A stretch of DNA of 25,614 nucleotides from a virus. A model generated the notes under the pieces. The model was not told where the DNA came from and made no database searches. It saw only the letters and a program-made list of their open reading frames with translations. The translations under genes and the position numbers were made by a program. How positions within the stretch are numbered: position 1 is the first letter of the stretch; each line of letters starts with the position of its first letter. Where the stretch lies: IMG/VR virus record IMGVR_UViG_3300043774_000981, positions 1 to 25,614 of that record. One strand, given 5' to 3'. Below are positions 2,254 to 7,023 of this stretch, piece after piece.

Positions 2254-2268
2254 AATAATAAATATTTG

Positions 2269-2339
2269 TTACCCGAGCAGGATTCGAACCTACCATAAGC
2301 GCACCAAAAACGCTTGTGTTACCGCTACACCATCGAGCA
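2269..2339 (-). tRNA. tRNA-Gln (UUG)
   Basis: Read on the minus strand, a 71-nt cloverleaf folds with acceptor TGCTCGA/TCGGGTA, a D-arm GTGTAGCGGTAACAC, an anticodon stem AGCGT/GCGCT with loop TTTTGGT (anticodon TTG), and a T-loop GGTTCGAATCC. CCA is not encoded. It is the last tRNA of the cluster. Confidence 0.93.
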
Positions 2340-2347
2340 ATTTACTG

Positions 2348-2419
2348 TAGCCCCAACGGGAATCGAACCCGTGACTCATCCGTGAAAGGGACGTGACTTA
2401 ACCGCTTGTCGATAGGGCC
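2348..2419 (-). tRNA. tRNA-Glu (UUC)
   Basis: A 72-nt cloverleaf on the minus strand. The acceptor GGCCCTA pairs with TGGGGCT. The anticodon stem CGTCC/GGATG encloses loop CTTTCAC, giving anticodon TTC. The T-arm is GGGTTCGATTCCC. The discriminator is A and CCA is not encoded. Confidence 0.94.
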
Positions 2420-2426
2420 ATTACTG

Positions 2427-2499
2427 AGCTTCCGGTCGGGGTCGAACCAACGGCCTGCTGATTACAAGTCAGCTGCTCTACCATCTGAGCTACGGAAGC
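2427..2499 (-). tRNA. tRNA-Thr (UGU)
   Basis: A 73-nt cloverleaf on the minus strand with acceptor GCTTCCG, a standard D-arm (GCTCAGATGGTAGAGC), anticodon stem GCTGA/TCAGC and loop CTTGTAA, giving anticodon TGT. The T-loop is GGTTCGACCCC. Confidence 0.94.
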
Positions 2500-2507
2500 A
2501 ATTTAGG

Positions 2508-2540
2508 AAAGTAGAAGATGGGTGCGTGGACATCTACTTT
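2508..2540. repeat. Hairpin between tRNA-Thr and the 62-nt structured spacer
   Basis: Arms AAAGTAG (2508-2514) and CTACTTT (2534-2540) pair perfectly, and an inner ATG/CAT pair (2518-2520 with 2531-2533) continues the stem across a 3-nt bulge. It may be a processing signal for the flanking tRNA-Thr or part of the neighbouring spacer RNA. Confidence 0.35.
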
Positions 2541-2542
2541 TA

Positions 2543-2604
2543 TGATTGGCATTTCTAACCGATTATATCCGCCCTTCCTACAGTTAAAGGATATATCCCA
2601 ATCA
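2543..2604 (-). ncRNA. Candidate structured RNA in the tRNA cluster (62 nt)
   Basis: The 110-nt gap between tRNA-Ser and tRNA-Thr contains no cloverleaf. It does contain nested complementary arms on the minus strand. A terminal 7-bp stem TGATTGG/CCAATCA encloses a second stem GATATATCC/GGATATAATC (one bulge), and a further CCTT/AAGG lies inside that. The overall length and 7-bp terminal stem are tRNA-like, but no anticodon arm or normal T-loop is present. T4 carries two stable non-tRNA RNAs (C and D) in its tRNA cluster, so a similar RNA or a decayed tRNA are both possible. Confidence 0.35.
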
Positions 2605-2611
2605 ACCTATG

Positions 2612-2696
2612 AGGAGAGTGAGGGATTCGAACCCCCGGTCCTGTTACAGACAATAGTTTTCAAGACTACCTCGTTCGACCGCTCTGACAACTCTCC
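2612..2696 (-). tRNA. tRNA-Ser (UGA)
   Basis: An 85-nt class II tRNA on the minus strand. The acceptor is GGAGAGT/ACTCTCC, the anticodon loop is CTTGAAA (anticodon TGA), and a long variable arm (TTGTCTGTAACAGGACC region) is typical of Ser. The T-loop is GGTTCGAATCC. It is preceded by a promoter-like motif copy at 2705-2721. Confidence 0.94.
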
Positions 2697-2704
2697 TTAC
2701 ATAA

Positions 2705-2721
2705 TAAACATAATCAGGAAA
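2705..2721 (-). promoter_or_regulatory. Promoter-like 17-bp motif, tRNA-Ser copy
   Basis: The minus strand reads TTTCCTGATTATGTTTA, 8 nt before the 5' end of tRNA-Ser. Its TTTCC is also the 3' arm of a 6-bp hairpin GGAAAT/ATTTCC (2717-2733). If it is a promoter it would give extra transcription of Ser, Thr, Glu and Gln tRNAs. Confidence 0.5.
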
Positions 2722-2740
2722 TCTTATATTTCCTAAATGG

Positions 2741-2815
2741 GGTGACTAATGGGAATTGAACCCATAACCTTCCGAACCACAATCGGATGCTCTAACCAGT
2801 TGAGCTATAGCCAAC
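2741..2815 (-). tRNA. tRNA-His (GUG)
   Basis: The anticodon stem TCCGA/TCGGA encloses loop TTGTGGT, giving anticodon GTG. The D-arm (GCTCAACTGGTTAGAGC) and T-arm (GGGTTCAATTCCC) are normal. The acceptor TGGCTA/TAGTCA pairs over six positions, with a T1-C72 mismatch. A G at -1 can pair with C73, the hallmark of tRNA-His. The three bases at 2740-2738 read CCA, so the 3' end may be encoded. Its 5' end lies one base from the 3' end of tRNA-Cys. Confidence 0.88.
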
Positions 2816-2816
2816 G

Positions 2817-2887
2817 AGTCACGTATTGGAATCGAACCAATGTATAAGGTTTTGCAGACCTTCGCCTAACCACTCGGCCAACCTGAC
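2817..2887 (-). tRNA. tRNA-Cys (GCA)
   Basis: A 71-nt cloverleaf with anticodon stem AAGGT/ACCTT and loop CTGCAAA (anticodon GCA), D-arm GCCGAGTGGTTAGGC and T-arm ATTGGTTCGATTCCAAT. The acceptor GTCAGGT/ACGTGAC has one G-G mismatch. The discriminator is T, as expected for Cys. Confidence 0.92.
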
Positions 2888-2892
2888 TTATG

Positions 2893-2963
2893 CACACCCT
2901 CTAGGGCTCGAACCTAGAACAACGGTTTTGGAGACCGTGATGATACCATTTCACCAAAGATGC
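2893..2963 (-). tRNA. tRNA-Trp (CCA)
   Basis: A 71-nt cloverleaf with acceptor GCATCTT/AGGGTGT (several G-T pairs), anticodon stem ACGGT/ACCGT with loop CTCCAAA (anticodon CCA), and T-arm CTAGGTTCGAGCCCTAG. The discriminator is G. Confidence 0.93.
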
Positions 2964-2968
2964 GTATT

Positions 2969-3042
2969 AGAAGTAATATCCTGAGCCCCTCAGGCAACCG
3001 CCGCTTATTGGAATAATTCCATCTGCTGTCCATATTACTTCT
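2969..3042 (-). ncRNA. Candidate structured RNA in the tRNA cluster (74 nt)
   Basis: The gap between tRNA-Pro and tRNA-Trp holds a perfect 11-bp inverted repeat, AGAAGTAATAT (3042-3032) with ATATTACTTCT (2979-2969). Inside it are two perfect hairpins, GGAA-TTA-TTCC and CCTGAG-GGG-CTCAGG, giving a three-way-junction shape. It abuts tRNA-Pro (3044) and lies 5 nt from tRNA-Trp, so it would be released by normal tRNA processing. It has the size of a tRNA but no anticodon or T-arm. It resembles no riboswitch or ribozyme core I can recognise; a T4 RNA C/D-like stable RNA is a fair analogy. Confidence 0.55.
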
Positions 3043-3043
3043 G

Positions 3044-3116
3044 TAGAATAGGCAGGACTCGAACCTACAACCTCTTGCTCCCAAAGCAAGTAATCTAGCC
3101 ATTGATATACTACTCT
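3044..3116 (-). tRNA. tRNA-Pro (UGG)
   Basis: A 73-nt cloverleaf with acceptor AGAGTAG/CTATTCT, anticodon stem CTTGC/GCAAG and loop TTTGGGA (anticodon TGG), and T-arm GTAGGTTCGAGTCCTGC. The D-arm is unusual (TATC...GATTA). The discriminator is A. Confidence 0.92.
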
Positions 3117-3122
3117 ATATGG

Positions 3123-3205
3123 TGGGAGTGGATGGATTCGAACCACCTACCCGTGCAGGTTACCAGATTTACAGTCTAGCGCTTAGCCAATTCAGCCTCA
3201 CTCCC
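3123..3205 (-). tRNA. tRNA-Tyr (GUA)
   Basis: An 83-nt class II tRNA with acceptor GGGAGTG/CACTCCC, anticodon loop CTGTAAA (anticodon GTA), a long variable arm and T-arm GGTGGTTCGAATCCATC. The discriminator is A, followed at 3122-3120 by CCA, so the 3' end may be encoded. It is the first tRNA of the cluster. Confidence 0.94.
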
Positions 3206-3207
3206 AA

Positions 3208-3237
3208 ATAAAAAACCCCTAACTTGTGATTAGGGGT
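3208..3237 (-). terminator. Rho-independent-type terminator or attenuator ahead of tRNA-Tyr
   Basis: On the minus strand ACCCCTAA (3237-3230) pairs perfectly with TTAGGGGT (3222-3215) around a 7-nt loop, followed by a run of T interrupted once. This is the classical intrinsic terminator shape. It lies after the small gene ending at 3354 and only about 2 nt before tRNA-Tyr, leaving no room for a promoter, so read-through must occur if the first tRNAs are made. Confidence 0.8.
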
Positions 3238-4809: not shown

Positions 4810-5916
4810 TTAATTTGATAATGGTGCTTTAATTCCTGAATGTGATTCATATCCAACTAATTCAAAGCAGTCTGGACGATATGATAATATAATATCTTTA
4901 AATGTTTTTGGTCCTAAATGTTCTTTTACTTTTTCATGTTGATACCAATTACGTTCAGTAATGTTTACTTTAGGTAATAAAAATGGTTTACGTAATATCT
5001 GTGCTTTAGCTTGATGAATGTGGTTTGAATATAAATGAACATCTCCTAAATTACCAATCAAATCTTCGGGTATCATATTAACTTCCTTTGCTATAATCTC
5101 CAATAGTAATGCATAAGATGCTATGTTGAATGGTAATCCTAAAAAAGTATCTACACTTCGTTGATTCCACATTAGAGAGATTGTTCTTTTTGGGATGTTA
5201 TTTTCATTCATTCTTTTGAGTTTAAGTTCATCAATTAAATGATGAATAAAGATGTTTTTTTCATTAGAATAAATGCCATCTAACTTACTGATTTGGATTT
5301 GACATCTCTCTTCAAAACTCAACTCTCTCGTATAAACTTGAAATCCATAATGACAAGGTGGTAAAACCATTTGGTCTAACTCTGCTACATTCCAAGCCGA
5401 TACCATTAATCTTCTACTATCAGGATTTGTTTTTAGAGAATGAACTAATTGTAGGATTTGGTCATACCACAATGAACCTTTCTCATTACCATTCATATCC
5501 ATCCAACCCTGCCATTGTCTCCATTGCTTACCATAGATTGGGCCTAAATCACCCCATACTTTAGCCCAATTTTCATCAGTTTTAATTAAATTGATAAATT
5601 GTTCTTTTGTATAAGATGCTTCATGTTGTGTGTGTTCTAAATAATTCTTATATGCATCACCATCCCAAATATGGCAATCGTAATCTAATAGGAATTTAAT
5701 ATTAGTATCACCACGTAAAAACCATAATAATTCAGTTACGATTGATTTCCACGCCATCTTTTTAGTTGTTAGCAGTGGAAATCCTTCAGACATTTTATGG
5801 CGAATCTGGCGTCCAAATACTGAAATAGTACCAGTACCAGTTCTATCGGATTTTTCTACTCCGTTATCTAAAATGTCTTGTAGTAATGCTTGATAATGTT
5901 TGTCTATGTTATTCAT
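4810..5916 (-). CDS. thyA: Thymidylate synthase (ThyA type)
   Basis: This 368-residue enzyme makes dTMP from dUMP using methylene-tetrahydrofolate. Conserved ThyA elements are visible: SDRTGTGT near residues 23-30, WGDLGPIYGKQWR around 121-133, the catalytic Cys188 in LPPCHYGFQVY, and the dUMP/folate-binding LGLPFNIASYALL and GDVHLYSNH. It is about 100 residues longer than E. coli ThyA, with insertions around residues 95-120 and between the catalytic Cys block and the RSVD block. The start overlaps the stop of the bilin reductase gene as TAATG, so it lies in the same operon as the heme oxygenase and bilin reductase. Confidence 0.97.
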   Translation of the reverse strand: MNNIDKHYQALLQDILDNGVEKSDRTGTGTISVFGRQIRHKMSEGFPLLTTKKMAWKSIVTELLWFLRGDTNIKFLLDYDCHIWDGDAYKNYLEHTQHEASYTKEQFINLIKTDENWAKVWGDLGPIYGKQWRQWQGWMDMNGNEKGSLWYDQILQLVHSLKTNPDSRRLMVSAWNVAELDQMVLPPCHYGFQVYTRELSFEERCQIQISKLDGIYSNEKNIFIHHLIDELKLKRMNENNIPKRTISLMWNQRSVDTFLGLPFNIASYALLLEIIAKEVNMIPEDLIGNLGDVHLYSNHIHQAKAQILRKPFLLPKVNITERNWYQHEKVKEHLGPKTFKDIILSYRPDCFELVGYESHSGIKAPLSN

Positions 5917-6533
5917 TATTGAATTTTTGGAAATAAAACTGTGCCCATAAAATATTTAGCGCGTTCTTCACCTAATTTAGCTTTTAATACATTATATGTA
6001 CGTTCATTTCTAGATTGTTGTTCGCAATAGTAATTTTGTGCTTCAACTACTAATTTAGGGTCAGCAAATAGACCTACTGATTCAGTATACGACTCAAATA
6101 AATCAGTAGCTTCATGACATAATCGAACCATTTCTTCAATACCTGGCCTAATTGCTATTGCGTGTTCTGAAAATATATTATTGGCCCATTCAGGTAATGG
6201 ATATGGTGTTTTAAATTCGTAATCAATGAATTTATCAGGTGAAAATGTAACTGGAGATAAATCAATGAATGCTGCTAATGGTTTTTCCTTAGTGCATATG
6301 ATATCAAACCCGAATATTGGATCTGCAAAATTCAATTGAGGAAATGCTGTAAAGTGTAGCACCTCTAATGCTCTATCGCTATAGCGTTCAATATGGGCTA
6401 TACGAAATGAATCAGAAACATATCGGGTGTTTTCCCACCCAAAATCTTCTGTTTCAATTTCGAATCCATTATCTTCAATCAGAATATTTTCTAAAATATT
6501 AGCTGTTTGATCTAGTATTATTTTGTAATTCAT
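5916..6533 (-). CDS. Ferredoxin-dependent bilin reductase (PcyA/PcyX/PebS family)
   Basis: This 205-residue protein should reduce biliverdin IXalpha to a phycobilin using ferredoxin electrons. The match to PcyA runs over the whole length: HIERYSDRALEVLHFTAFP, DPIFGFD and AAFIDLSP in the first half, LPEWANNIFSEHAIAIRP around 113-130, and a C-terminal QNYYCEQQ...NERT...TVLF block. Equivalents of the PcyA active-site residues are present: His47/Glu49 for His74/Glu76, His60 for His88, and Asp77 for Asp105. The later Asp220 position seems to be Glu177. The protein is shorter than cyanobacterial PcyA at the N-terminus, as in viral PebS and PcyX. The start overlaps the end of the heme oxygenase gene by 35 nt, so substrate and enzyme are made together. 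Which bilin is produced cannot be read from the sequence. Confidence 0.9.
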   Translation of the reverse strand: MNYKIILDQTANILENILIEDNGFEIETEDFGWENTRYVSDSFRIAHIERYSDRALEVLHFTAFPQLNFADPIFGFDIICTKEKPLAAFIDLSPVTFSPDKFIDYEFKTPYPLPEWANNIFSEHAIAIRPGIEEMVRLCHEATDLFESYTESVGLFADPKLVVEAQNYYCEQQSRNERTYNVLKAKLGEERAKYFMGTVLFPKIQ

Positions 6534-7023
6534 CTGCTATATTGATGATAAATTGAAATCCTTTATTTACTTCGTCTGCCCATTCGTCTCTTTGAATTGC
6601 TCTAATACTACCAACAGCTTCTTGCATATCTTCAAAATCATACATTTTGCCTGAACCTGGTACTTTAGTTTTCATCATTTGGCCACCATAGGCTAATGCT
6701 AAGTAATTCAAATAAACATGTGGTAGGCGTTCTTTTTCGCTAAGTGATGCTATATGATTAGCATATTCCAAAGTTGAGGGAAGTAAACTACCAGTTACAT
6801 CTAGAGATGAATTTAATTCGAGTAAATCTACTTTAATGTTATCCACACGATTTAATGTTGGATATGTACGTGATTGTGACTCAATTGCATCAAATATAGC
6901 TAATTGTTGATGTAAATAATTTGCATATTCGCCTGTTGATAATTCACCACGAAACATTCGTTGGTTGAATTCCATTTTCTCTGCTTTGCTGTGCAGTTCA
7001 GCTGTTGCTTCTCTTAATTTCAT
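6499..7023 (-). CDS. Heme oxygenase (biliverdin-forming)
   Basis: This 174-residue, mainly helical protein should open heme to biliverdin, iron and CO. The proximal heme ligand is His11 in LREATAELHSKAE, which matches the LREGT...AH pattern of bacterial and cyanobacterial HO1. The distal helix has YLALAYGGQMM (GGQ at 113-115), equivalent to the GDLSGGQ signature. It is shorter than cyanobacterial HO1 (about 240 residues), as known phage versions are. It is directly upstream of the bilin reductase and overlaps it by 35 nt, making a two-step heme-to-phycobilin cassette. Reduced ferredoxin would have to come from the host or from another part of the phage. Confidence 0.88.
   Translation of the reverse strand: MKLREATAELHSKAEKMEFNQRMFRGELSTGEYANYLHQQLAIFDAIESQSRTYPTLNRVDNIKVDLLELNSSLDVTGSLLPSTLEYANHIASLSEKERLPHVYLNYLALAYGGQMMKTKVPGSGKMYDFEDMQEAVGSIRAIQRDEWADEVNKGFQFIINIADELQNNTRSNS

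Follow-up and report, generated by a model that had tools for sequence, protein, structure and literature searches.

Results

A structured 74-nt RNA within a phage tRNA cluster

The stretch of DNA analysed here, hereafter the window, comes from an uncultured phage and constitutes a 25.6-kb virus record in IMG/VR. Nine tRNAs were called in it by ARAGORN, all on the minus strand, and an Rfam scan of the window returned these nine tRNAs only. They form a cluster (2268..3205) which reads, in order of transcription, Tyr-Pro-X-Trp-Cys-His-Ser-Thr-Glu-Gln, where X is a 74-nt structured RNA (2969..3042, minus) recognised from its fold, a homologue in a second phage and a covariance model. A terminator-like hairpin with a T run lies just upstream of tRNA-Tyr (3209..3236, minus), and the same hairpin stands just upstream of the first tRNA in three related phages (L013, L151 and L154).

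The nearest cultured relative of the phage is immuto, a T4-like Immutovirus which infects Flavobacterium. The helicase and recombinase of the window are 47% and 57% identical, respectively, to the immuto proteins, and because of this resemblance the host is likely to be a member of the Bacteroidota. As a separate observation, this relative of a Flavobacterium phage carries at 5916-7023 (minus) a ferredoxin-dependent bilin reductase adjoining a heme oxygenase, that is, a pigment-synthesis pair.

X is flanked by tRNA-Pro(UGG) upstream (3043..3116, minus) and tRNA-Trp(CCA) downstream (2892..2963, minus), as placed by ARAGORN. Since every tRNA of the cluster is encoded there, the minus strand is the RNA strand to consider for X. 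A preliminary description of the locus had put X 1 and 5 nt from its neighbours. The 5-nt spacer to tRNA-Trp (AATAC, 2964..2968, minus) stands, but by ARAGORN X follows tRNA-Pro directly, at 0 nt. The same description had reported a perfect 11-bp terminal stem enclosing two perfect hairpins, and folding confirmed this architecture. The closing stem pairs a 5′ arm (AGAAGTAATAT, 3032..3042, minus) with a 3′ arm (ATATTACTTCT, 2969..2979, minus) and encloses a 5-bp hairpin (TGGAA TTA TTCCA) and a 6-bp hairpin with a 3-nt loop. On the minus strand the first of these grows via an internal loop to CAGC...GCGG, giving an extended hairpin 1 (CAGC-AGA-TGGAA-TTA-TTCCA-ATAA-GCGG; 3001..3028, minus). Hairpin 2 (CCTGAG GGG CTCAGG; 2980..2994, minus) abuts the 3′ arm of the closing stem.

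Shuffling bore out the view that such pairing is unlikely by chance. The plus strand of X folds with an MFE of -21.6 kcal/mol (z -4.3) and was equalled by none of 200 shuffles; the minus strand with its 5-nt tail reaches -22.3 (z -2.8), a stability matched by 2/200 shuffles. The 11-bp flush stem itself was reached in 0/300 dinucleotide shuffles. Nor is X a cloverleaf, in agreement with the preliminary description: the Rfam tRNA model (RF00005) did not match it at the gathering score or even at E<=10, ARAGORN called no tRNA at 2969-3042, and neither a T arm nor an anticodon arm is present. Against Rfam as a whole, X gave one chance match and no family at E<=10. We also rejected X as an intrinsic terminator, as it is followed by AATAC and tRNA-Trp and not by a T run.

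A homologue in a distant phage keeps the fold

An 18-mer from X matched one other IMG/VR contig, L020 (122.6 kb). This contig is from a distant relative, whose thymidylate synthase is 67% identical to that of the window. Its copy of X (L020:13590-13664) lies between tRNA-Ile and tRNA-Trp at spacings of 0 nt and 5 nt, with an identical AATAC spacer. Both copies therefore occupy the slot upstream of tRNA-Trp, the preceding tRNA being Pro in the window and Ile in L020. The two copies of X share 93% identity, compared with 78% for tRNA-Trp and 57-69% for the shared Thr, Tyr, Pro, His, Ser and Cys tRNAs; the exceptions are tRNA-Glu (95%) and tRNA-Gln (88%).

The two copies of X differ by five changes, all of which fall outside pairs or keep the pair, so that 25 of the 25 modelled pairs are kept in L020. 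Two substitutions and one inserted base are in the linker, one substitution changes the hairpin 2 loop from GGG in the window to GAG in L020, and one lies in the 3′ arm of the closing stem, which reads ATGTTACTTCT in L020. This sole stem change converts a U-A pair to U·G on the tRNA strand and would give A-C on the other strand, which argues that the minus-strand RNA is the one selected. By our own estimates, the chance that all five changes would keep the structure is roughly 0.03, and the chance that all five would fall within the last 31 of 75 columns is about 0.01. No difference falls within nucleotides 1-44, which span the 5′ arm and all of extended hairpin 1, and the extended hairpin-1 arm is the most conserved part of X. 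The five structure-keeping events are suggestive, not strong, evidence for conservation of the predicted fold, and recent transfer, rather than constraint, could account for the identical 44 nt. The preliminary description had asked for compensatory changes in relatives; the one homologue found in the collections searched offers a single stem change, the pair-keeping U-A to U-G substitution, and no double change.

Searches for further copies of X

The covariance model of X (R1) gave convincing matches to the window and L020 copies only. Two patterns drawn from the core of X, GACAGCAG N10-34 AATAAGCGG and AATATGGACAGCAGAT, retrieved 67 and 26 stretches from IMG/VR, respectively, with no real copy besides that of the L020 contig. 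The other stretches, many of them coding, do not have the closing stem of X and look like chance matches, and none of the loci scanned for the first pattern has a tRNA. A pattern for the 3′ half of X found the L020 contig alone. No significant DNA match to X was present among the INPHARED phages. In 84,980 GTDB genomes we found no bacterial sequence like the core of hairpin 1, even with some hairpin variation allowed. Among 40 whole contigs of related phages, X was present in L020 only and never in a second copy. Finally, a tRNA-Trp pattern located 12 further clusters, of which none has X before tRNA-Trp.

Two partial matches were considered individually. On the contig of L155, a 22-nt sense-strand match to the X core (L201 1500-1525, 96%) was judged to be due to chance because it lies inside an ORF, which we take to be queD, and its covariance-model score is E 0.5. 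The Ig-like repeat gene gp064 of phage immuto shares 26 of 29 aligned positions with the core, apart from a 3-nt gap (L150 19616-19679). This match is in frame (WSADVITISG vs WTADGIIPISG) and scores E 0.03 with the covariance model; it is probably a chance match as well, being in a coding Ig-like repeat with the closing stem broken. X is a real feature which is not a tRNA, lies outside Rfam and is rare, occurring in two phages.

Stem-closed units are spaced like tRNAs in related clusters

The slot before tRNA-Trp, which holds X in the window, contains a different RNA of 107 nt, closed by AACTTATCA/TGATAAGTT, in L006, L151 and L154, and no unit in L013 and L155. Similarly, a 79-nt insert with an 11-bp closing stem followed by a 5-nt spacer is present after tRNA-Ser in L006 and L154 and absent from the window, L013 and L151. 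Since the contents of near-identical clusters differ in this way, we measured flush closing stems in all collected gaps. The collected clusters gave 66 inter-tRNA gaps of 45-260 nt, all of which were surveyed; removal of gaps with a T-loop motif (missed tRNAs) left 50. A flush closing stem of at least 9 bp was found in 11 of these 50 gaps, whereas windows of equal length from these loci would give 0.74; the clusters are a non-random sample found via tRNA and protein patterns derived from the window, and the pattern had been spotted before it was measured.

The position of these stems was also constrained. In 6 of 9 independent cases the closing stem ended exactly 5 nt before the next tRNA (P about 2e-5), whereas control stems had no fixed end position relative to the next tRNA. 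Spacers between tRNAs peak at 5-6 nt, and most neighbouring tRNAs in these clusters are 1-9 nt apart. The stem-closed units range from 61 to about 120 nt and have no evident sequence relation to each other; some of those counted may be decayed or remodelled tRNAs, such as that of L156 with its T-arm-like GTGGTTAGAATCCGC. From the excess of stems and the 5-nt spacing in these gaps, we conclude that X belongs to a set of RNA units with the spacing expected of tRNA genes. This statistical pattern is a more interesting result than X itself, and suggests that stem-closed RNAs form a little-known class of small RNAs which phages release along with their tRNAs.

Other structured RNAs were observed in the same clusters. 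The window has a second structured non-tRNA stretch, 111 nt long, between tRNA-Ser and tRNA-Thr (2500..2610, minus). It is conserved in six relatives with few changes. Most of these map to a single predicted helix, as a G-C/A-U double change, two wobble changes and one break. This putative covariation is consistent but thin, the compensatory signal being matched by 92/500 shuffles. In the cultured phage immuto, whose host is Flavobacterium sp. LMO8, the Glu-Gln gap (L149:21173-21254) is structured as well (z -3.0).

Elsewhere, an RNA of ~80 nt follows a lone tRNA-Ser in four phages (L033 6933+, L037 6714+, L063 4731+ and L067 6820+), with closing stems of the GAGAAGTA/TGCTTCTC type, internal helices which apparently covary and a possible pseudoknot; that of L063 has no match in Rfam. 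A larger element comes after it in L033, L063 and L067, and in L033 and L063 this element has an acceptor stem and a T arm enclosing a long insert. A structured RNA of ~150 nt, closed by AAGATAATG/CATTATCTT and likewise with no Rfam match, precedes tRNA-Thr in L161 (375-521); it is also present in the His-Thr gap of L156 (8230-8499) and upstream of tRNA-Thr in L158, and so in three phages. At L044 8032-8180, a tRNA-like RNA has an acceptor, a D arm and a T arm, with an insert of ~39 nt in place of the anticodon loop. The tRNA-Phe/tRNA-Lys gap of L020 (13227-13310) contains a T arm and then an acceptor 3′ half with CCA, without an ordinary 5′ half, and is a tRNA remnant or a rearranged tRNA. 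Lastly, a tRNA of L162 (3098-3175, counted on the reversed strand) was assigned anticodon TTA by ARAGORN and would decode the stop codon UAA, which hints that this phage suppresses or recodes stop codons.

Comparison with known phage RNAs

The preliminary description had likened X to the stable RNAs of the T4 tRNA cluster. T4 rnaC and rnaD (species 1 and 2) are late RNAs detected on northern blots, and have no known role (PMC3014915, PMC9697503). With rnaD 1 nt after tRNA-Arg and rnaC 6 nt after rnaD, they are, like X, non-tRNA RNAs at tRNA-like spacing in the tRNA operon of a T4-type phage, and as to location the comparison is apt. It does not extend to homology, as the predicted folds differ: rnaC is tRNA-like, with a T arm (CCGGGTTCGAATCCCGG), and rnaD does not have a long flush closing stem. 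Furthermore, rnaC and rnaD measure 139 and 119 nt, compared with 74 nt for X, and covariance model R1 did not match the T4 region (L174). X and the T4 RNAs are of the same kind in position, but are not the same family. The interpretation in the preliminary description is partly supported: X is a structured non-tRNA RNA unit, kept in one distant relative and spaced like a tRNA gene, and its excision by tRNA-processing enzymes is a prediction.

Three other systems bear a partial likeness to X. GOLLD and ROOL are structured phage RNAs of unassigned role, often near tRNA islands (PMC12286853), but they are much larger, form nanocages and are Rfam families whose models X did not match. RNA anti-CRISPRs (Racrs) are short phage-encoded RNAs that work in trans by mimicry (PMC10651486), which resembles a candidate role for X; they are defined, however, by similarity to CRISPR repeats, and querying the GTDB genomes with the hairpin-1 core found none for X. 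Phage tRNAs can be anti-defence genes, such as the T6 tRNA-Tyr against Septu (PMC13096335), in an operon context like that of X; unlike them, X is not a tRNA and has no implicated defence system.

Discussion

We favour, with a probability of about 0.6, the reading that X is a small stable non-coding RNA unit of the tRNA operon which is freed by RNase Z and RNase P and acts in trans. Established tRNA maturation involves two cuts, one by RNase Z just behind the discriminator base and one by RNase P at the tRNA 5′ end. A single transcript would cover the whole tRNA operon including X. Host RNase Z, cutting after the discriminator base of tRNA-Pro, would generate the 5′ end of X, and host RNase P, cutting at the 5′ end of tRNA-Trp, would leave X with a 5-nt 3′ tail; given the 0-nt and 5-nt spacing, these two cuts would suffice to free it. 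The 11-bp stem and the stacked hairpin 2 would shield the ends, allowing X to persist. Both excision and stability are proposed here by analogy with known tRNA processing. Extended hairpin 1, which is invariant and carries the internal loop AGA/AUAA, would then be presented as a putative binding site, and we presume it to be the recognition element.

As for what X does once released, the leading mechanism, advanced tentatively, is that of a decoy acting in trans, which would occupy a host protein such as an RNA-binding or RNA-cleaving protein threatening the phage or its tRNAs. We put this mechanism first because presence, absence and replacement among close relatives is the behaviour of accessory or anti-defence genes, and because T4-like phages are known to use tRNA genes against a defence that cuts tRNAs (PMC13096335). 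It draws on turnover and conservation only, no target of X and no link to a defence system having been found, and excision of X as a discrete RNA is more likely than the decoy step.

The alternative that survives best, though we consider it unlikely, is that X acts in cis as a folded spacer which parts tRNA-Pro from tRNA-Trp, guiding processing or marking an RNase site, and is then discarded. X does lie exactly between the processing sites, such gaps hold different sequences with the same closing-stem layout, and unrelated RNAs precede tRNA-Trp in other phages. Yet 1-9 nt suffice between most neighbouring tRNAs of the same clusters, and L013 and L155 manage with no unit at all before tRNA-Trp. 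A pure spacer would not need 44 invariant nucleotides, including unpaired internal-loop bases, and X is preceded by tRNA-Pro in one phage but tRNA-Ile in the other.

Could X instead be a decayed or remodelled tRNA, a functionless remnant in a fast-changing cluster? Its length is close to that of a tRNA, remnants do occur nearby (the T arm with CCA at L020 13227-13310), and T4 rnaC and the RNA at L044 8032-8180 are tRNA-like RNAs with altered middles. We nevertheless find this improbable, as X lacks both a T arm and an anticodon arm and does not score as a tRNA at E<=10, and decay would not be expected to preserve 25 of 25 pairs and 44 identical nucleotides between distant phages.

The remaining alternatives are very improbable. 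A Racr, mimicking a host CRISPR repeat and poisoning a Cas complex, would suit a strongly conserved hairpin of patchy occurrence, Racrs being small phage RNAs in solitary repeat-like units (PMC10651486), but the hairpin-1 core is absent from the 84,980 GTDB genomes even with some hairpin variation allowed. A small ORF encoding a peptide (e.g., MDSRWNYSNKRR.. or ..EVIWTADGIIPISG..) could be proposed since two frames are open across the conserved 44 nt in both phages, the second being in register with the immuto Ig-like repeat that the covariance model matched (E 0.03); however, the 1-nt indel after the conserved half shifts both frames, so that peptide ends and lengths differ, the shared half has no synonymous changes, and no convincing protein match was found (best E 5). 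A very small mobile DNA element, bounded by terminal inverted repeats and inserting beside tRNA genes, would explain the inverted ends and the 79-nt unit after tRNA-Ser, cleanly present in L006 and absent from L013, L151 and the window, but each unit has different inverted ends, the L006 insert shows no obvious target-site duplication, 40 whole contigs hold no second copy, the internal core is conserved and not the ends alone, and unit plus spacer fits tRNA spacing.

Returning to X as a released, trans-acting RNA, a broader and more doubtful extension is that the tRNA operons of this phage lineage are expression platforms for a large, fast-changing repertoire of stem-closed RNAs, X included, each released by tRNA enzymes and each a decoy or inhibitor of a different host factor. 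Such a repertoire would be the RNA counterpart of anti-defence islands. A class whose fold is defined, whose core is conserved, whose spacing is precise and tRNA-like, and which is present in some and absent from others of a set of near-identical tRNA clusters, makes the question of what such RNAs do in T4-type phages testable, since the ends, stability and binding partner of the RNAs, and fitness, are all open to measurement. Should these RNAs counteract host factors, RNA-based anti-defence could be sought in tRNA clusters.
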